From [Phormidium] sp. LEGE 05292 (GTDB lineage: Bacteria > Cyanobacteriota > Cyanobacteriia > Cyanobacteriales > Aerosakkonemataceae), in assembly GCF_015207735.1 (NCBI RefSeq), contig NZ_JADEWG010000003.1, positions 1 through 64,000 of the forward strand: a stretch of 64,000 bases of DNA. The letters are read 5' to 3'. The notes beneath the pieces were generated by a model. That model saw only the letters and a program-made list of their open reading frames with translations, did no database searches and was not told where the DNA came from. Both the position numbers and the translations under genes were made by a program. Position 1 is the stretch's first letter, and each line of letters opens with the position of its first letter. This document shows positions 8,376-18,385 of the stretch, one piece after another.

Positions 8376-10724
8376 CTAAAGATGGAATTTCGGCAATAAC
8401 AAACTCTCCTCTATTTCCTGTCTTACTTGCCGATTTACATAACAATCGCTATGCAAACAATCTACCAACAATTTATTGGCATCATAATATTGCTGAAGCA
8501 ATTTTTGCTGCTGTTTGTTAAATAGCCAACTGTGACCGATATTGCGATACTCGACCATTAATAATTTTAATTTTTCGATCCAGGTTTGGCTGTTATTCTC
8601 CCACCATTGCCTGAATTTCCAACCGTCAGCATCAATGTCGGGAAATTGGTTTTTCAGTTCTTGCAAAGCTTTTCCTAGTTTAGGATCTAGTATATTGGCG
8701 CGTTCGCAGACTAGGAAAAATGCGCCTTTAAAAGGATATGGAGAATTAGTAGGGAAATCGATTTTCAAAGTTCGATCGCACGCGAGAGTAAGCAGATCGT
8801 CAAGACCTAGATCGAGGGTGTGGATATTGCCAAGAGCTAGTAGAATGAAAAGACGACGATCGAGAAGGCTAATTAGTTCCCGATCGCAATAATCAAGTGC
8901 ATTTCGCTGCGAATAGCGATCGCATCCCAACTGAAAATAAAAAGCGCGTACAGCAGCAGATTTATAGGGAACTTCTACAGAAGCAGATTTCTCTTTTACC
9001 CAGAGCAAAAATTGTTGCAATTTTTCATCATTTGCGACTAATTCATTTACCTGTTGTTTCATTAATTGCAATAGATAATCTGCTGGCTGTAACATTCCTA
9101 CAGCTAGCATAAATACTTCTCGCCAACGGTGTTCCGTAATGTGATTAACTAGATTTTGTGAAGCAATTTCTAATGCTTTAGGCCCAGAACTATTGACAAT
9201 TTTTCGGGCTGTAAAATATTCCTGAAATGTCAGATGAGAAAAAGAGTAAATTCCTCTGGCTCTTTCTACCAGTAAACCATGTTGTGCTTCGATCGATTTC
9301 AACACGGCTTCGCTATCTAATTGTAAAAGTTTTGGATCGGTTTCTGCATCGGGTAAATTGCAAATAAAATCGGTAATGTAAGATTCGATTGTCTGTTGTT
9401 TAAAAAAGTAATCCTTGTGCTCGAATGTAGTTAAAGCTATTTGGCTGAGTAAATCTTTCTTGCGCTGAACCGATAGTTTTTTGTAAACTTCGTCTCGACG
9501 AATAATTCCCCTTTTAGCATCCCATTTTCTTAATAAAGTAGCGATGCCTTGCTTGTATAATTCGGCGCGATTGGAAGGGAAATCACCTGCATCTTCAAAT
9601 TCTAATAATAATAGCGTCAACAATAAAGGATTGGTTGCTAATTCTCTAATAGATGGATTTGATTGTAACTGTTGTAAACATCTTTCGGCGGTACTTCCTG
9701 CTATTTCTAGTTCACTAGTACAAAATTCCGAGTTTTCTTTTACTTGAAACCACTTGGTTACAAATGACTTAATCTGGCTCTGATTAAAGTCGGTGATTTC
9801 TACTTCGGTGAATTTTTCAAAAGTATATTCCTGTCCGGCAATCCGACAAGTGATGACAAATTTGTTTTGATAGTATTCAGACGAAAAATCTTGTATTTCT
9901 TTGATTACTCGATTAGCATCTTCTTCTCTGATTTCATCTAAGCCATCGAGCAAAATCAAGCCTCTGCCCTCTTTTAATATTTCGATAATTTCGTCGATCT
10001 TCACGTTACAATTAGATAACAGATGGGCAATAAATTCTAGGTGATTTGTTTCATTTCTGGCTTCAGCAAAGTCTCTTAAAGTGATAAAAACAGGTAATAA
10101 ATTTGTAAAAATTTTGCCATAGCTGCATTGGATGGCAAGATATTTTAAAAATGTGGTTTTACCAGAGCCCGGTTTTCCTAAAATCATCAGTTTTGGATAA
10201 CGTTCAACTGCTTTTAGACCAGGGACTCTTTCTTTAATAATTCTACTTAGTCCAAAGCGATCGAAATTTTCTGATTCCGGGTCAAAACCTTCTAGTAAAT
10301 TGGCTATTGTTAACCGCCTACTGCCAGTGATTTGTTCCAAAATATTAACGTTGGTGTAGATATCTGTTAAGCCGATCGGTTGCGTCATATCTAAAACTCT
10401 GATTGTGCCGCAACGCTGTTGAATAATTGGTTGTATTTTGGCTCGAATATTTTGAACAAGGCTATCTATATTGATGCTGGTGTAATTAGGTTTTTGCTCC
10501 GGCTGCCATGCAACAATATCCTGTAAATCTAACTCTAGAAAATCGCATATATTCAGGAATATTTGACTTTCTACAGGCTGACCTCGGAAAAATTTCCAAA
10601 TTGGCTGCCGAGATTTACAATTTACCTCATTAGCTAGTTGTTGTTGGGTCAATCCGGTGCGGTTGAAAGCCTTTTTTGCTTCTTGAATTCCTTGTTCGGA
10701 TGCTTGGAGCGATCGCTTACTCAT
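8376..10724 (-). CDS. HTH-NACHT NTPase (copy 1)
   Basis: This 782-residue STAND NTPase has a helix-turn-helix at about residues 15-65 (GLTQQQLANEVNCKSRQPIWKFF) and a conserved linker (RCGTIRVLDMTQPIGLTDIY). The NACHT domain has Walker A GKPGSGKT at 183-190 and Walker B LILLDGLDEI. A helical C-terminus ends NKLLVDCLHSDCYVNRQVRQEIEE. HTH-NACHT proteins of this type are common in cyanobacteria, and some bacterial NACHT proteins protect against phage; a defence role is therefore inferred. The frame is open to 11222, but the ATG at 10724 is chosen: the upstream part overlaps a response regulator and looks non-coding. The gene is a paralogue of the one at 11532-13796. Confidence 0.9.
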   Translation of the reverse strand: MSKRSLQASEQGIQEAKKAFNRTGLTQQQLANEVNCKSRQPIWKFFRGQPVESQIFLNICDFLELDLQDIVAWQPEQKPNYTSINIDSLVQNIRAKIQPIIQQRCGTIRVLDMTQPIGLTDIYTNVNILEQITGSRRLTIANLLEGFDPESENFDRFGLSRIIKERVPGLKAVERYPKLMILGKPGSGKTTFLKYLAIQCSYGKIFTNLLPVFITLRDFAEARNETNHLEFIAHLLSNCNVKIDEIIEILKEGRGLILLDGLDEIREEDANRVIKEIQDFSSEYYQNKFVITCRIAGQEYTFEKFTEVEITDFNQSQIKSFVTKWFQVKENSEFCTSELEIAGSTAERCLQQLQSNPSIRELATNPLLLTLLLLEFEDAGDFPSNRAELYKQGIATLLRKWDAKRGIIRRDEVYKKLSVQRKKDLLSQIALTTFEHKDYFFKQQTIESYITDFICNLPDAETDPKLLQLDSEAVLKSIEAQHGLLVERARGIYSFSHLTFQEYFTARKIVNSSGPKALEIASQNLVNHITEHRWREVFMLAVGMLQPADYLLQLMKQQVNELVANDEKLQQFLLWVKEKSASVEVPYKSAAVRAFYFQLGCDRYSQRNALDYCDRELISLLDRRLFILLALGNIHTLDLGLDDLLTLACDRTLKIDFPTNSPYPFKGAFFLVCERANILDPKLGKALQELKNQFPDIDADGWKFRQWWENNSQTWIEKLKLLMVEYRNIGHSWLFNKQQQKLLQQYYDANKLLVDCLHSDCYVNRQVRQEIEESLLLPKFHL

Positions 10725-10780
10725 TTTCAGTATATATTTCACTAAACTTTTGTAAATTTTGCTTGCGAATTCATCTAAGC

Positions 10781-10834
10781 CAAACATTACGCAAACATTA
10801 CACAAACACCTGTTTGTAATACTGGTGTTGTTTG
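10781..10834. promoter_or_regulatory. CAAACA repeat cluster, candidate operator
   Basis: Three direct repeats of an 11 bp unit start at 10781, 10792 and 10803 (CAAACATTACG, CAAACATTACA, CAAACACCTGT), so they share one face of the helix. The third overlaps a 16 bp palindrome (10802-10817, ACAAACA-CC-TGTTTGT). Another TGTTTG half-site lies at 10829-10834. The cluster fills the 141 bp spacer between the divergent NACHT copy 1 and response regulator genes. The HTH domain of the NACHT protein is one possible ligand (inference). Confidence 0.55.
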
Positions 10835-10865
10835 GATTTGGAACAATTCTATCGAGGAATTTGTT

Positions 10866-11267
10866 ATGGCAACCGTTCTGATTGTAGAAGATGAGTCGAT
10901 GATCGTTAAAGTGTTCTCTAAGATTCTCACTAAGGCAGGGGGCTTCATGGTACGCCACACTGAAAATGTGGAAGAGGTAATCCAAATTGCCCAGTCTGGG
11001 GAAGCCGATTTGATTATAATGGATGTTTCTTTGAAGAACAGCTGGTATGAAGGACAAATTATTAATGGTTTGAAAATAACTCAAATGCTGAAAGCTGACT
11101 CGAAAGCGGCTAAAGTACCCGTAATTTTGGTGACAGCTAGCTGCTATGCGGGCGAACATGAAAACTTTCTGAAAATAAGCGGTGCAGATGGCTACATTGC
11201 TAAACCAGTTGTGGATTATCAAGACTTTTTGGATCAGATTCGAGCGATGATACTAAACAGAGGATAA
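10866..11267 (+). CDS. Single-domain response regulator (CheY-like)
   Basis: The 133-residue protein is one receiver domain. It keeps the acidic pair Asp9/Glu10, the phosphoacceptor Asp53 (LIIMDVSL), Thr90 and Lys113 (GYIAKP). There is no output domain, so it acts by protein contact or phosphotransfer. A short insertion follows Asp53 (KNSWYEGQIINGLK). GAGG lies 10 bases before the ATG. It is divergent from NACHT copy 1, with the CAAACA cluster between them. No kinase is adjacent. Whether it belongs functionally with the NACHT genes is unknown. Confidence 0.9.
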   Translation: MATVLIVEDESMIVKVFSKILTKAGGFMVRHTENVEEVIQIAQSGEADLIIMDVSLKNSWYEGQIINGLKITQMLKADSKAAKVPVILVTASCYAGEHENFLKISGADGYIAKPVVDYQDFLDQIRAMILNRG

Positions 11268-11531: not shown

Positions 11532-13796
11532 TTAAAAATTTGGTTTGGAATATTTTTCTATTTCGCAGATGGGTAATAGTAACGTATCTTCGATGTATTG
11601 TCGGACTTCTCGGCTGACGTAGCAATCGCTGTTTAGACAATCTATTAATAATTTATTAGCATAGGAATATTGATTTAGTAATATTTCCTGATTTCCGCTT
11701 AGCTGCCAATCATGACCGATATTTCGGTGTTTTATCATTATTGGTTTTAATTTATTAATAAACGAGATTTTTTCATAATTGTAGGGCTTAAGGGGCTTAG
11801 GCAATTCGGCTATTAGTTCTGATAGTGCTTGCTTCAAATCTTCGTCATTCCTATTAACAAGGTTATAAGCACGAGTAAGTTGAAACTGCCCAGAAGGAGT
11901 ATGTTCTCCAACTGTAGCAAGCTCTAGGTCAAGAGCAAGCTCACTAGCACTGCGAAAAGCTCTTTCTAGACCATAAACACGAGAAACATCAAATGAAAGA
12001 TTAGCTTCAAGAGCATTAATAATTATTTCATACTGAGAACGGTTTAGACTACTTAATCTGCGATCAATTCGGAATAGGTAAAAAGCTCTAATAGATGCTA
12101 ATTTATAAGGAAGATTAACTGAAATAGACTTCTCACAAGCCCATTTTAATAATTGTTGTATTTCCTTTTCATTATTTATAGTTTTATCAGACTGCTCTTT
12201 CATTAATAGCAATAAACTGTCAGCACTTGGCGACATCCCGACTGCTAACAAAAAAACTTCTTGCCAACGTTTTTCCATCATCTGGCTAACCAAATTTTTT
12301 AATGCTATTTCTGATGACTGCTGAACAGTAATAAACTCTCTAGCAGTGAAATACTCATGAAATGTCAAATGAGAAAACGAATAAATTCCTTTAGCTCTTT
12401 CTACTAATAATCCATGTTGGGCTTCAATTGACTTCAAAACTCTTTCACTGTCCAGTTGCAACACTTCAGGATCTGTGCTGGCATCGGGTAAATTGCGTAT
12501 ATATTTTATAATATGTTGTTCAGCCACTCTCTGTTTAAAGAAATAATCAGAACTTTCAAATGTATTTAAAGCAACTTTACTGAATAAATCTTCCTTACGT
12601 TGAACTGATAGCTTTTTGTAGACTTGATCGCGGTATATTCCTCGTTTAGCATCCCATTTCTTCAGTAAAGCATCAATTCCTTCTTTGTAAAGTTCTGAAC
12701 GATTTGCGGGAAAATCTCCTGATTCCTCAAAGACTAAACAAAGTAATGTCAGAAGTAAAGGATTTGTTGCCAATTCATAAATTCGCTGATTTTCTTGAAG
12801 GCGGTACAGGAAATTCTCTGGCTTTACAGCTTGATTTTTAAACCAGTTATTTGCAAAGGTAGCAATTTGTTGCTCATCAAAATCAGCTACTTCTACTTCA
12901 GAAAATTTCTCAAAGCTATATTCCTTTGCTGCAATACGACAAGTCATGACAAAGCGATTGTCACGAAACTGGTCAGAAAAATCTCGAATCTCTTTTAAAA
13001 CTCGTTGGTTGTCCTCTTCCCTAACTTCATCTAATCCATCGAGTAAGACTAATCCCTTGTTATGTTGAAATATTTCAACAACGTGATTGCCTGTAACCTG
13101 GCAAGTAGATAATTGCTGGCTGATGTATTCTAGTAAATTTGGTTTATCCTTAGCTTCAGCAAAATCTTTGAGAGTGATAAAAATCGGTACTAGTTCAGTC
13201 TTAAATTTACCCTCTACAGACTGTATTGCTAAGTATTTTAAAAAGGTTGTTTTACCTGCACCAGGTTTTCCCAAAATCATTAATTTAGGATACTTTTCGA
13301 CTGCTTCTAGTCCTGGGACTCGCTTTTCTGAGATTCTGCCAAGTCCGAAGCGATCAAATTCTTCAAAGTTACATTCTTGGAATAATTCAGTAATTTCTTT
13401 GCGTGTGCGCCCGGTAATTTTTTCTAAAATATTGACGTTGGTGTAAATGTCATTTAATCCAATGGGTTGATTCATATCCAATACGCGCATTGTTCCGCAG
13501 CGTTCTTGGATGAGGGGTTTTATTTTTTGACGTACTTCTTGGACTAGGGAATCTATATCTGTTACTTCTACTTCATTATCTTGGTAAGCAACATCTTGAG
13601 CATTCAAACCTAGAATTTCACAAATACCACAAAATATTTCAGAATCAACAGCTTTCCCATTAAAAAACTTTGAAACTGGCTGACGGCTACATTTAAGTCT
13701 TGCTATTAACTTTGTCTGGTTCAGTCCTTTTGTAGTTAAAGCTTGTTTTGCCAATAAAATAGCTTTTGGAGATAGCTGAAGTGAACGTCCTGTCAT
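11532..13796 (-). CDS. HTH-NACHT NTPase (copy 2)
   Basis: This 754-residue paralogue of the 8376-10724 product has the same order of parts. It has an N-terminal HTH (KGLNQTKLIARLKCSRQPVSKFF), the linker RCGTMRVLDMNQPIGLNDIY, and a NACHT domain with Walker A GKPGAGKT at 176-183 and Walker B LVLLDGLDEV. Next come a winged-helix-like region (GIYSFSHLTFHEYFTAR) and a C-terminal helical part ending LLIDCLNSDCYVSREVRQYIEDTLLLP. The most divergent part is the sensor-like segment between about 560 and 690, as expected if the two copies recognise different triggers. The ATG at 13796 is preferred over an in-frame TTG at 13802. A phage-defence role is inferred from family knowledge. Confidence 0.9.
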   Translation of the reverse strand: MTGRSLQLSPKAILLAKQALTTKGLNQTKLIARLKCSRQPVSKFFNGKAVDSEIFCGICEILGLNAQDVAYQDNEVEVTDIDSLVQEVRQKIKPLIQERCGTMRVLDMNQPIGLNDIYTNVNILEKITGRTRKEITELFQECNFEEFDRFGLGRISEKRVPGLEAVEKYPKLMILGKPGAGKTTFLKYLAIQSVEGKFKTELVPIFITLKDFAEAKDKPNLLEYISQQLSTCQVTGNHVVEIFQHNKGLVLLDGLDEVREEDNQRVLKEIRDFSDQFRDNRFVMTCRIAAKEYSFEKFSEVEVADFDEQQIATFANNWFKNQAVKPENFLYRLQENQRIYELATNPLLLTLLCLVFEESGDFPANRSELYKEGIDALLKKWDAKRGIYRDQVYKKLSVQRKEDLFSKVALNTFESSDYFFKQRVAEQHIIKYIRNLPDASTDPEVLQLDSERVLKSIEAQHGLLVERAKGIYSFSHLTFHEYFTAREFITVQQSSEIALKNLVSQMMEKRWQEVFLLAVGMSPSADSLLLLMKEQSDKTINNEKEIQQLLKWACEKSISVNLPYKLASIRAFYLFRIDRRLSSLNRSQYEIIINALEANLSFDVSRVYGLERAFRSASELALDLELATVGEHTPSGQFQLTRAYNLVNRNDEDLKQALSELIAELPKPLKPYNYEKISFINKLKPIMIKHRNIGHDWQLSGNQEILLNQYSYANKLLIDCLNSDCYVSREVRQYIEDTLLLPICEIEKYSKPNF

Positions 13797-13899
13797 ATTC
13801 AAGTGAAAATACTTTTACCTATTTTACTGACTCCCGCTAATAACTGTTCTCTAACTCATTCAAACTTATACAAAGTCATACATTCAACAAGCCCATCTC

Positions 13900-13925
13900 A
13901 TTCACGATTTTGGTGAACCTATAAG
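13900..13925 (+). promoter_or_regulatory. Promoter with overlapping inverted repeat, microprotein
   Basis: The inverted repeat TTCAC(13901-13905)...GTGAA(13913-13917) is followed at once by TATAAG (13920-13925), a good -10 hexamer. The ATG of the 49-residue frame lies 22 bp further on. An inverted repeat between -35 and -10 is a usual operator position for repression. The binding protein is unknown; the HTH of the divergent NACHT gene is a candidate. Confidence 0.45.
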
Positions 13926-13947
13926 AGTCGTGATTGGTAAAGCTTGT

Positions 13948-14097
13948 ATGGACACTATCTCAATAGTTATACTCACTGCTTTCATTACTTGGGTAATAGA
14001 ACGTTCTGCGGATGCTTGCTGCAAACTTATAAGTAATAAGTGGCGCAAAGGTCGCAAAGCTAAAAACTTGAAACCATCTAAGGAACGTGACGAATAG
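13948..14097 (+). CDS. 49-residue membrane microprotein
   Basis: This short frame encodes one hydrophobic helix (residues 3-18, TISIVILTAFITWVIE), a Cys-Cys pair (ADACCKL), and a strongly basic tail (KWRKGRKAKNLKPSKERDE). The layout is that of a single-pass small membrane protein. It has a candidate -10 box upstream and a strong intrinsic terminator 21 bp after the stop, so it looks like a complete monocistronic unit. It is divergent from NACHT copy 2. Small hydrophobic proteins with basic tails include type I toxins and membrane effectors; which, if any, applies here is unknown. Confidence 0.55.
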   Translation: MDTISIVILTAFITWVIERSADACCKLISNKWRKGRKAKNLKPSKERDE

Positions 14098-14117
14098 AAT
14101 TCGTAGCTAGACAGACG

Positions 14118-14140
14118 AAACCCGCCTGCGCGGGTTTTTT
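14118..14140 (+). terminator. Strong intrinsic terminator
   Basis: An 8 bp GC-rich stem (14118-14125, AAACCCGC, with 14130-14137) and a 4-base loop run into a T tract (14135-14140, then GTTTG). It is the clearest Rho-independent terminator in the window and marks the end of the microprotein transcript. Confidence 0.85.
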
Positions 14141-14188
14141 GTTTGTTTTTTAAATTTTGGACTGGTAGGCTTTGTCTAATTGTTTAAA

Positions 14189-14397
14189 GTAGGGGCGAAG
14201 CATTTGGGCGATAAATTTTGCAACTCACAAAAAATTCTTGTACCCAAATGCTTCGCCCTCCCCCGCAGATGATCTGTATTTACAATCTTTCGCTAAGACA
14301 GGGCGAAGCATTCGGATATTCATATTTTGGTTGAGTTGCTTAAATTGTCGCCCGAATGCTATAGCGCTATCGCGCATGGCTTCGCTAACGCCCCTAC
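14189..14397. repeat. Nested palindromic repeat element (GGGCGAAGCATT family)
   Basis: The outer ends are inverted (GTAGGGGCG at 14189-14197, CGCCCCTAC at 14389-14397). Inside, a perfect 16 bp pair (14193-14208 with 14243-14258) and a second, shorter pair (14307-14315 with 14352-14360, AGCATTCGG) make two hairpins. There is no coding capacity. It looks like a non-autonomous MITE-like repeat of the type frequent in filamentous cyanobacteria. Confidence 0.7.
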
Positions 14398-14520
14398 AAA
14401 ATTTCTGTCCGATACGCTATTTTACATTTGCCAAAAGTTTGTGGAGTCGATCGCACTCACCCCACCCAATTTAATATAGTAAAGTGCCTCATATTCTCCC
14501 CAAACTACCAACTAACACCC

Positions 14521-14793
14521 ATGAGACAAACCGAAATCTTACAAGCACTCAAACAACTAAGCAACTCAGAACGCCTTACCATTGCTACAGTTGCTTTGCA
14601 GATGGCGCGGGAAGATTGGAAAACTCTCACTCCAGCAGAAAAAGAGCAACAACTTGCTATCTCAGCCCAACTAGCAGTATTAGATTATTTAAAAGATGAA
14701 GAACTAACTGCTTTCACTGCTCTGGATGGAGAAGACTTTTATGATTATACAGATGAAGATTTAGCCAATCTAGATTCCCATGCAAAGAAGTGA
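14521..14793 (+). CDS. MazE-like antitoxin partner (putative)
   Basis: The 90-residue acidic protein has a helical N-terminus (RQTEILQALKQLSNSERLTIATVALQMARED) and an acidic tail (DGEDFYDYTDEDLANLD). Its 3' end overlaps the MazF-type toxin gene by 14 bases, the usual arrangement of a toxin-antitoxin pair. The acidic tail would suit wrapping a basic RNase. It does not show a clear AbrB or ribbon-helix-helix signature, so the antitoxin call rests mainly on context. The ATG at 14521 is preferred over the frame's earlier start at 14428. Confidence 0.75.
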   Translation: MRQTEILQALKQLSNSERLTIATVALQMAREDWKTLTPAEKEQQLAISAQLAVLDYLKDEELTAFTALDGEDFYDYTDEDLANLDSHAKK

Positions 14794-15121
14794 AGTTTGG
14801 CTAGTTAATCTAGCGCCTACCGTAGGAGCAGAAATCAGCAAAACTCGTCCTGCTGTTATCGTTAGTAAAGATACAGTGGGAATTTTGCGACTTAAAGTAA
14901 TTGTTCCTATCACAGATTGGAAAGATGATTTTGCAACTAGAGTCTGGATGGTGCGACTTGAACCTAACGCAGAAAATAATCTCACAAAAACCTCAGCAGC
15001 AGATGCTTTTCAAGTCCGTTCCATCTCCCAACAAAGATTTGTTCGTCAGATAGGAACCATTCCCGAAACAACTATGGAAGAAATTAACGCCGCCTTAGCT
15101 ACTGTTCTAAATATCAAGTAA
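14780..15121 (+). CDS. MazF/PemK-type endoribonuclease toxin
   Basis: The 113-residue protein has the PemK/MazF beta-barrel pattern: RSEVWLVNLAPTVGAEISKTRPAVIVS at the N-terminus (the catalytic Arg region is EISKTRP), then VIVPITDW, and a later conserved FQVRSISQQRF. MazF toxins cleave mRNA and arrest growth until the antitoxin neutralises them. It is translated from an overlapping start with the upstream antitoxin gene. The length is normal and no damage is seen, so the pair is probably functional. Confidence 0.92.
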   Translation: MQRSEVWLVNLAPTVGAEISKTRPAVIVSKDTVGILRLKVIVPITDWKDDFATRVWMVRLEPNAENNLTKTSAADAFQVRSISQQRFVRQIGTIPETTMEEINAALATVLNIK

Positions 15122-15355: not shown

Positions 15356-18300
15356 ATGATTCCTCTACAACTCTCATTAACAAACTTCCTCAGCTATCGT
15401 AAAGCAACCCTGGATTTTCGGGGATTGCATACTGCTTGCATTTGTGGCGCAAATGGGGCGGGAAAATCTTCCCTTTTAGAAGCTATCACTTGGGCGATTT
15501 GGGGCGAAAGTCGGGCGGCGACTGAAGATGATGTCATCCACTCTGGCGCGGATGAGGTTCATGTGATTTTCGTTTTTGAACATCAACAAGCAGTTTATCG
15601 CGTTTTACGATCGCGTCGCCGAGGCGGAGGCGCAACTTTAGAATTTCAGGTAGAAACCCCTACAGGTTATCGCGCTTTAACCGAACGGGGAATGCGTTCA
15701 ACTCAGCAATTAATTTCCGAACACCTGAAATTAGATTACGATACTTTTATTAATTCCGCTTATTTGCGTCAAGGTCGAGCCGATGAATTCATGCTCAGAA
15801 AACCCACTGAACGCAAACAAATTTTAGCAGATTTGTTGAAGCTAAGTCAATATGAAGAATTAGCCGAAAAAGCCAAAGATTTATCCCGTCAATTTAAAGG
15901 ACAAGCGGATCAAATTCAGCAGGATTTAGACAGAATTAAAATTCAGTTACAACAGCGAGATGTCATTGCTCAAGAACAAGCGATCGTAGAAGCCCAGATC
16001 AACACTCTCCAACAAGCCCAAGCTGCTGATAATCAAGAATTGCAAAGGTTACAAGCTCTACAACATCAGCGCCAAACTTGGGAACAACAACTAACTTGGC
16101 AACAACAACAATATCAGAATCTTCGGGGAGATATTGAACGACTCCAGCAAGATTTGGCGAGTAGTCAACAGCAACAACAAGAGTTAGAAAATCTCCTGAG
16201 TCAGGAAGCAGAAATTACTGCTGGTTATGCTCATTTTCAAAACTTGCAATCTCAAGAAGAAGCATTAGCCGGAAAATTTCAATCCCATCAAAAAGCAGTT
16301 GAACAAAAGCGCAAGTTACAAGAACAACAAACTGGGGTAATTAACGAGTTAAATCTGCAATTGCGTCAGATACAAACTCAGTTACAAGAGTTAGATAAAC
16401 AGGAACAACAAAACCAACAAATTTTAAATCAAACAGGCGAAGTTGAAGCAGCTTTAGCGAAGTTACAACAGGCGCGAATTCGCTTAAATCAATTGGATGA
16501 ATTGCAATTGCAAGTTAGTCCTTTGTTGCAGCGTCGTCAACAGTTGCAAAACCAGATCGATCGCACTCATGCTAAACTCAGCGCCAGGTTAGAGGAAATC
16601 TCCGCTTCCGCTTACCAATTGCAAGCACAGCAGCAACGTCAACCAAAATTGCAACAAGCAGTCATGGAAGTGGCGACGCAAATCGATCAGTTGGAGAAAA
16701 AGCGAGTTTACCAACAGCGCGTGCAGGAGAAAGGTTTAGAAAGACGCAGCTTTATGGAGCGTCTGCAAGAAAATCAGAGGGTATGTGAGCAAAAAATCGG
16801 AGAATTGCAGCAAAAAATCGATATGTTGCAAAATCCCGATGCAATTTGCCCTTTGTGCGATCGCCCCCTTGACGAACACCACTGGGATAGAGTCGTTCAA
16901 AAAACCCAAAACGAACACCAGGAAATTCAACAGGAGTTTTGGGTAATTCGAGAGCAATTAGCAGTCTGCGAGCGAGAAATCCAGGTACTTCGGGGTGAAT
17001 ATCGCCAATTATCCCAAGAATTAGCACCTTATGATAATTTACGAGAACAAAGGGGAGAATTGCAAGCCCAACTTCAGGCGACAGGCGATGTACAACAACG
17101 TTTGCAACAAATGAGAGCGGAAGTTGAGCATTTAGAGCGATCGCTAGCCACTGGAAATTATGCCACAGAAGTCCAGCAAGAACTGCGCCAACTAGAGCAA
17201 GAGTTACAAAACTTGAGCTACGATGAGAAAAACCACGCTTTAGCCCGAAATGAAGTCGAAAGATGGCGTTGGGCGGAAATTAAGCAGGATCGAATCAAAG
17301 AAGCGCAACGTCGTCAAACCCAAATTAGCAGCAGAAGACCTGAACTACAAGCCCAAATCGCCGAAATTCAAAGCCAAATTGAGCAACAACAAACAGATTC
17401 CGAATTATCGCGTCAAATTGCCGCTATTAACCAGAAAATCGCCGAAATAGATTACAAAGAAAGCGAGTACAACTCTGTAAGAACTGCGGTGCGTCAAGCA
17501 CGTAATTGGGAAATGCGCTATCAACAATTGATTGCGGCGCAACAACAATATCCGCAAATTCGCCAACGCTGTCAAGAGTTAGCGGGAGTGTTGGAAGTGC
17601 GATCGCAAGACGTAGAAACTGCTAACCTACAAATTACTAATATCATCAAACAATTAGAGCAAATTCCCAACACATTTAATGAAATTCAAACCATAGAACA
17701 GCAGATGCAATGGCGAAAACTGCAATTAGAAGAACAGTTGCGTCAAATGGGAAGTTTGCAACAACAATTACAGCATTTGGAAAGACTAAATCAAGAATAT
17801 CAAATTCAAACTTCCCAATTAACCAAAGCAAAACGTCAATATAAAGTCTATAACTCTTTAACAGAAGCTTTTGGTAAAAAAGGTATTCAAGCTTACATGA
17901 TTGAGAACATTTTACCACAATTAGAAGCCGAAACAAACTCTTTATTAGCAAGACTTACAGGGAATCAATTGCACGTTCAATTCGTCACTCAAAGAGCCGG
18001 AAAAAGCGGTAGAACATCAAGTAAAAAAGATGTGAAAATGATTGATACCCTGGATATTTTGATTGCAGATGCGCGGGGTACTCGTGCTTACGAAACTTAT
18101 TCCGGTGGCGAAGCATTTCGGATTAACTTTTCGATTCGTTTAGCATTAGCAAGACTACTAGCACAACGCGCAGGAACAGCTTTACAAATGCTGATTGTAG
18201 ACGAAGGTTTTGGAACACAAGATCAGGAAGGTTGCGATCGCCTAATTGCGGCGATAAATGCGATCGCCAACGACTTCGCCTGCATCCTCACCGTCACCCA

Positions 18301-18385
18301 CATGCCATACTTCAAAGAAGCCTTCCAAGCGCGAATTGAAGTCAACAAAACACCCAACGGTTCCCAATTAAGGTTATCTATGTAG
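15356..18385 (+). CDS. sbcC: SbcC/Rad50-type exonuclease subunit
   Basis: The 1009-residue SMC-like ATPase has an N-terminal half-domain with Walker A GANGAGKSS (31-39). A long, Gln-rich antiparallel coiled coil (about 175-880) is folded at a zinc hook CPLCDRPL (Cys498, Cys501). The C-terminal half has the signature YSGGE (915-919) and Walker B MLIVDEGF (945-952). With SbcD (Mre11) it opens DNA hairpins and processes double-strand ends; no sbcD is in the window. Processing of palindromes is relevant given the repeat-rich surroundings, but that link is speculative. The start at 15356 gives the expected N-terminus MIPLQLSLTNFLSYR. Confidence 0.95.
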   Translation: MIPLQLSLTNFLSYRKATLDFRGLHTACICGANGAGKSSLLEAITWAIWGESRAATEDDVIHSGADEVHVIFVFEHQQAVYRVLRSRRRGGGATLEFQVETPTGYRALTERGMRSTQQLISEHLKLDYDTFINSAYLRQGRADEFMLRKPTERKQILADLLKLSQYEELAEKAKDLSRQFKGQADQIQQDLDRIKIQLQQRDVIAQEQAIVEAQINTLQQAQAADNQELQRLQALQHQRQTWEQQLTWQQQQYQNLRGDIERLQQDLASSQQQQQELENLLSQEAEITAGYAHFQNLQSQEEALAGKFQSHQKAVEQKRKLQEQQTGVINELNLQLRQIQTQLQELDKQEQQNQQILNQTGEVEAALAKLQQARIRLNQLDELQLQVSPLLQRRQQLQNQIDRTHAKLSARLEEISASAYQLQAQQQRQPKLQQAVMEVATQIDQLEKKRVYQQRVQEKGLERRSFMERLQENQRVCEQKIGELQQKIDMLQNPDAICPLCDRPLDEHHWDRVVQKTQNEHQEIQQEFWVIREQLAVCEREIQVLRGEYRQLSQELAPYDNLREQRGELQAQLQATGDVQQRLQQMRAEVEHLERSLATGNYATEVQQELRQLEQELQNLSYDEKNHALARNEVERWRWAEIKQDRIKEAQRRQTQISSRRPELQAQIAEIQSQIEQQQTDSELSRQIAAINQKIAEIDYKESEYNSVRTAVRQARNWEMRYQQLIAAQQQYPQIRQRCQELAGVLEVRSQDVETANLQITNIIKQLEQIPNTFNEIQTIEQQMQWRKLQLEEQLRQMGSLQQQLQHLERLNQEYQIQTSQLTKAKRQYKVYNSLTEAFGKKGIQAYMIENILPQLEAETNSLLARLTGNQLHVQFVTQRAGKSGRTSSKKDVKMIDTLDILIADARGTRAYETYSGGEAFRINFSIRLALARLLAQRAGTALQMLIVDEGFGTQDQEGCDRLIAAINAIANDFACILTVTHMPYFKEAFQARIEVNKTPNGSQLRLSM

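Follow-up and report, generated by a model that had tools for sequence, protein, structure and literature searches.

The bNACHT antiphage STAND proteins, including bNACHT25, are described as single polypeptides in which the effector, where it is known, is N-terminal, and the bNACHTs of clade 14 have no discernible effector domain (PMC12169576). How bacterial NACHT proteins act when no effector domain is visible in them is puzzling. In the window analysed here, the whole stretch of 64,000 nucleotides of cyanobacterial DNA, the gene of such a protein, NACHT copy 2, is divergent from a gene encoding a membrane microprotein that belongs to a family we call family A (Table 1). NACHT copy 2 has in common with the bNACHTs a central NACHT module and a helical region at the C-terminus, which is NCH2 in this protein and NCH1 in clade 6, and, like the clade 14 bNACHTs, is without a recognised effector domain; unlike the bNACHTs, it has an HTH as its N-terminus and a separate small divergent gene linked to it (PMC12169576). 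The arrangement also resembles that of fungal NWD2/HET-S, in which the gene of a NACHT-type STAND receptor adjoins the gene of a separate membrane-active death protein (PMC4344463, PMC3321046). HET-S, however, signals by a prion-forming domain, for which a single-helix microprotein of 49 amino acids leaves little room. CyanoTRADDas_TM (PF20712), one of the conflict-system parts of cyanobacteria (PMC8195603, PMC7159879), is also a small cyanobacterial membrane protein, and we find it in the same slot at some HTH-NACHT genes; it has about 97 amino acids and two membrane helices, whereas family A has one predicted helix and no PF20712 match. In the literature searched, to which the founding bNACHT paper did not belong, we found no NACHT-linked divergent microprotein. 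Fst/Ldr-like type I toxins are proteins of about 30-50 amino acids with one hydrophobic helix and a charged C-terminus, and they are controlled by antisense RNA. The microprotein likewise combines a short hydrophobic helix with a charged tail, but the gene linked to it encodes an HTH-NACHT protein.

Table 1. Features of the microprotein and NACHT copy 2 locus, in positions of the window
Feature	Positions	Strand	Basis or remark
HTH-NACHT-NCH2 STAND protein (NACHT copy 2), divergent partner, 754 aa	11532..13796	-	Pfam, AF2 model, Foldseek
TAAAATAG, candidate -10 element for NACHT copy 2	13819..13826	-	many intergenic regions of the HTH type have a similar, similarly placed sequence
Three direct repeats ACTCATTC / ACTTATAC / AGTCATAC, proposed HTH operator	13854..13881	+	shuffles and held-out regions; putative binding
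TATAAGAGTC block, putative -10 element of the microprotein promoter	13920..13929	+	also found ahead of other members of the family
Family A membrane microprotein, 49 aa + stop	13948..14097	+	24 homologues, dN/dS, one predicted helix
Dispersed repeat copy with the microprotein stop codon and a terminator-like hairpin	14091..14138	+	matches in related genomes

A family of membrane microproteins

The microprotein gene has an ATG start, a frame of 49 codons (13948-14094) and a TAG stop codon (14095-14097), and encodes the peptide MDTISIVILTAFITWVIERSADACCKLISNKWRKGRKAKNLKPSKERDE. Residues 3-17 are hydrophobic, with a Kyte-Doolittle mean of 2.37 in a 15-residue window, a stretch that is short compared with a full membrane span, and the AlphaFold2 model is a single helix over residues 2-40 (mean pLDDT 77). 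Profile searches place the peptide in a family of 24 single-helix membrane proteins of roughly 36-78 amino acids, whose start codons are aligned. The ORF, its one membrane helix and its basic tail are as an earlier, sequence-only reading of this DNA had described them. That reading had also pointed to a pair of cysteines, which is present as Cys24-Cys25 but is not conserved. The pair is GL in the orthologue of a sister species of the same genus, which is 77% identical over 47 residues with the first 23 identical, and any cysteine occurs in just three of the 24 members. We reject a functional role for the pair since it is unconserved across the family.

Family A has the motif TAxxxWxxE[KR]SAD. 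W15 and D22 are invariant in the alignment and M1, E18 and L25 nearly so, and on a helical wheel A11, W15, E18, D22 and positions 25 and 29 fall within 80 degrees. Close pairs mostly give dN/dS values of 0.06-0.6 (0.84 in one pair), and at the level of sequence the family is under purifying selection. Confident matches in the class and phylum samples were all in the order Cyanobacteriales. Family A had no match in Pfam, NCBIfam or PADLOC, and the microprotein had no viral relatives in IMG/VR and no credible plasmid relatives. The very small size could suggest that the ORF arose by chance on an RNA or leader that is not translated, but the 24 homologues with their aligned start, the invariant residues, the purifying selection and the purine-rich ribosome-binding-like sequences 5' of several family starts make this extremely improbable. 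Because of the homologues with an aligned start and the low dN/dS, the ORF is, judged by comparison of sequences, a real gene of an unnamed family.

The NACHT partner and its linkage to family A

NACHT copy 2 matches the Pfam NACHT (2.5e-16) and NCH2 (9.8e-27) families and has both a Walker A (GKPGAGKTT) and a Walker B (LLDGLDE) motif, as expected of a bNACHT STAND protein. In the AlphaFold2 model the N-terminus is a five-helix HTH, and the best Foldseek matches of the model are NLRC4/NOD2; neither Pfam nor the model revealed a recognised effector domain. The gene starts at an ATG at 13796, with 151 bp between the two start codons, in the divergent orientation to the microprotein that had been read from the sequence. 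In a sample of 148 Cyanobacteriales genomes, 108 have homologues of NACHT copy 2.

In 20 of 23 informative family A loci (the 24 loci minus L091, which is cut by a contig end) the immediate divergent neighbour of the microprotein gene is a NACHT gene, whole or truncated, or what remains of one; among these, the partner at L087 is visible only as an HTH end before the contig end. At L092 an HTH of the same kind is followed in the partner by other sequence and pentapeptide repeats, without a NACHT domain. The microproteins at L093 and L096 are orphans without a NACHT partner. At L079 (7243-7802) the NACHT gene is reduced to a C-terminal remnant that abuts a microprotein frame without a start methionine or promoter. 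The sequence-only reading had proposed that a NACHT sensor and a small membrane effector or inhibitor form a unit; the peptide is indeed conserved near NACHT genes and the linkage supports such a unit, the role of whose small member we infer below.

Partners in the family A loci include HTH-NACHT-NCH2 proteins, a single HTH-NACHT-HEAT protein, at L076, and HTH-less NACHT-HEAT-NCAB1 proteins from the same genome family. Since the ends of the NACHT protein vary in this way, the microprotein has been kept while the ends change. The partners in Nostocaceae have neither the HTH nor the intergenic repeats, and control by an HTH is therefore not general. Sensor ends that differ, with or without an HTH, would be expected of partners of a protein that binds the NACHT core, and the W-E-D face of the microprotein is strongly conserved. 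The microprotein may thus be a membrane anchor, adaptor or inhibitor, with the conserved face binding the NACHT protein and either holding it inactive at the membrane or recruiting it there. We regard this as possible but rather unlikely, as the partner at L092 has the HTH without a NACHT domain.

An intact peptide is found beside a broken or absent NACHT gene at L088, L089, L090, L093, L095 and L096, although some of the NACHT breaks at these six loci are possibly assembly errors. This suggests that the peptide is not necessarily lethal when left to itself, and it argues against the NACHT protein as a simple antitoxin. A pair resembling a toxin-antitoxin system, with the microprotein as membrane toxin and the HTH-NACHT protein as repressor or antitoxin, would agree with the small hydrophobic helix and charged tail, with the HTH and repeats of the common promoter and with the deletion at L079, which took the start codon and promoter of the microprotein along with the NACHT gene. 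We consider it unlikely, because the peptide stays intact where the NACHT gene is truncated or missing, and the orphan at L093 retains the TATAAGAGTC block.

Downstream of the pair, at 15356-18385, lies an SbcC-like gene, which is found after the pair in four further genomes as well (L074, L082, L085 and L086); on gene order, the sbcC flank is a conserved site or defence hotspot. At 14521-15121 a small antitoxin-like ORF precedes a MazF/PemK-like toxin gene. The sister species lacks the MazF/PemK-like gene at the equivalent site, and MazF genes occur near NACHT homologues in L102, L107, L110 and L117. The presence of sbcC downstream of the pair in several loci and of MazF genes nearby in others points to an insertion hotspot and could indicate an unrelated small gene that merely lies in the same genomic hotspot as the NACHT gene. 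This explanation is very unlikely, because the linkage to NACHT persists at other flanks, for example dnaK, and the divergent orientation is fixed.

Intergenic repeats, putative promoter and dispersed repeat

The sequence-only reading had placed a -10 box 22 bp upstream of the microprotein, and TATAAG is found there, at 13920-13925, 22 nt 5' of the ATG; no -35 element for the microprotein was found by consensus scan. The TATAAGAGTC block is single copy within the 64-kb window and recurs in several family loci, and a similar block precedes the microprotein in many, not all, of the HTH-type loci. Between the divergent starts the window has three direct repeats, compared with 0.22 in shuffles. 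Direct repeats of the AACTCATAC/AAGTCATAC type, with a spacing of predominantly 8-12 bp, are found in the intergenic region of most HTH-type loci. The motif was picked by eye on these HTH-type loci and then applied to 106 held-out upstream regions, of which 10 have at least two copies 35-135 bp from the NACHT start (shuffle mean 0.6, maximum 5); the reverse strand of the held-out regions gave none. The same repeats lie between the starts at three loci with an HNH gene (L182, L208 and L210) that were outside the set used to choose the motif. The HTH of the NACHT protein may bind these intergenic repeats.

About 20 nt past the microprotein stop there is a hairpin (14117-14138; MFE -20.2 kcal/mol, z -4.4). 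The gene had been credited with a strong terminator of its own; the hairpin is there, but it is part of a repeat that is dispersed among filamentous cyanobacteria, has matches in 16 of 40 related genomes and supplies the microprotein's stop codon too, and a dedicated microprotein terminator is rejected on this ground. The strain's own genome has only four exact copies of the repeat core, and one exact core sits after another NACHT-linked small membrane gene, on contig C157. The repeat holds a CCCGCCTGCGCGGG palindrome and is at times tandem in relatives, and its TAG can serve as the stop codon of the preceding gene. A search of 13500-14700 against Rfam gave no known RNA at or above a gathering score. 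The NACHT gene on C157 (L002; also L134 and L026), another one of this genome, has an N-terminus of the HTH-less type and a divergent 78-aa membrane protein, after which a copy of this terminator repeat lies; the sister species has both this protein and the repeat.

Exchange of the small-gene slot

When the upstream regions of 109 NACHT copy 2 homologues were compared with exemplar proteins, a small divergent partner could be recognised in 35: family A in two, the further membrane family B in eight, C-type membrane proteins in six, D in one, E in two, HNH in five, receiver in seven (that at L189 by a weak match) and CyanoTRADDas_TM-like in four. The exemplars come partly from the same loci, and the screen is therefore to be read as a count rather than as a test. 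No partner was recognised for about two thirds of these 109 genes. Universal pairing is rejected, as most HTH-NACHT genes, above all those of the RTRQ-type clade, are without a recognised small partner. Under a fixed rule, small hydrophobic divergent ORFs were found at 14 of 107 NACHT genes versus 3 of 135 control genes.

In a tree of the NACHT N-terminus, read without support values, A, B and C partners are intermixed in the clade of the window and HNH partners are found elsewhere. Homology is probable between families A and B (hhalign 91%) and was not established between A and C (hhalign 16%). The HNH partner, a 70-aa protein (Pfam HNH 7.9e-11), is divergent from HTH-NACHT genes at L113, L182, L203, L208 and L210. 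A 133-aa stand-alone receiver (10866-11267) is head-to-head with a second HTH-NACHT-NCH2 gene of the window, NACHT copy 1 (locus 8376-11267), and the pairing of an HTH-NACHT gene with a stand-alone receiver is also found at L115-L118 and L122. Beside some HTH-NACHT genes the same divergent slot is filled by CyanoTRADDas proteins with two TM helices.

A probable separate effector

As a conserved family sits at NACHT genes and its slot is exchanged, the microprotein is probably a separate effector. The exchange, together with the lack of an effector domain in the NACHT protein, suggests a sensor-regulator with an interchangeable small effector. We prefer an effector over an inhibitor because the slot also holds HNH nucleases and other small proteins: where one lineage has an HNH nuclease and others have membrane helices, an effector slot is the best explanation, and a swap with an HNH nuclease or a receiver would be hard to explain for an anchor. 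Our preferred reading is accordingly a sensor-regulator firing a small effector, in this case a membrane-active helix. We give a probability of about 0.5 to a two-gene STAND unit for defence or cell death in which the microprotein acts as the small, separately encoded effector and the HTH-NACHT-NCH2 protein as sensor and switch. This role is drawn from the exchange and from the anatomy of the protein, and that of an anchor or inhibitor is possible.

Starting from what is observed, a gene family linked to NACHT genes, common intergenic repeats and a slot exchanged even for an HNH nuclease, we suggest how an effector could work. The HTH-NACHT-NCH2 protein would sense a trigger, its NACHT domain would oligomerise with ATP, and its N-terminal Cro/C1-type HTH would bind the repeats of the divergent promoter as an operator. 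Once activated, the NACHT protein would raise expression of the microprotein, contact it directly, or both. The microprotein would then enter the membrane as a single helix, whose Ala-Trp-Glu-Asp face is conserved, oligomerise and impair the membrane, and the infected cell would be stopped, so that the purpose of the unit would be anti-phage.

We speculate, more tentatively, that the NLR-like HTH-NACHT protein may be both sensor and transcription factor and may fire an interchangeable small effector, be it a membrane microprotein, an HNH nuclease, a receiver or a 2-TM protein, from a common repeat-controlled divergent promoter, with cassette-like exchange taking place outside the sensor polypeptide. 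If some NACHT proteins without a visible effector domain act through a tiny, separately encoded protein that annotation is prone to miss, the class would gain an effector, and the wiring, from HTH and repeats through the divergent promoter to a microprotein or nuclease, would be testable and would parallel fungal NWD2/HET-S.
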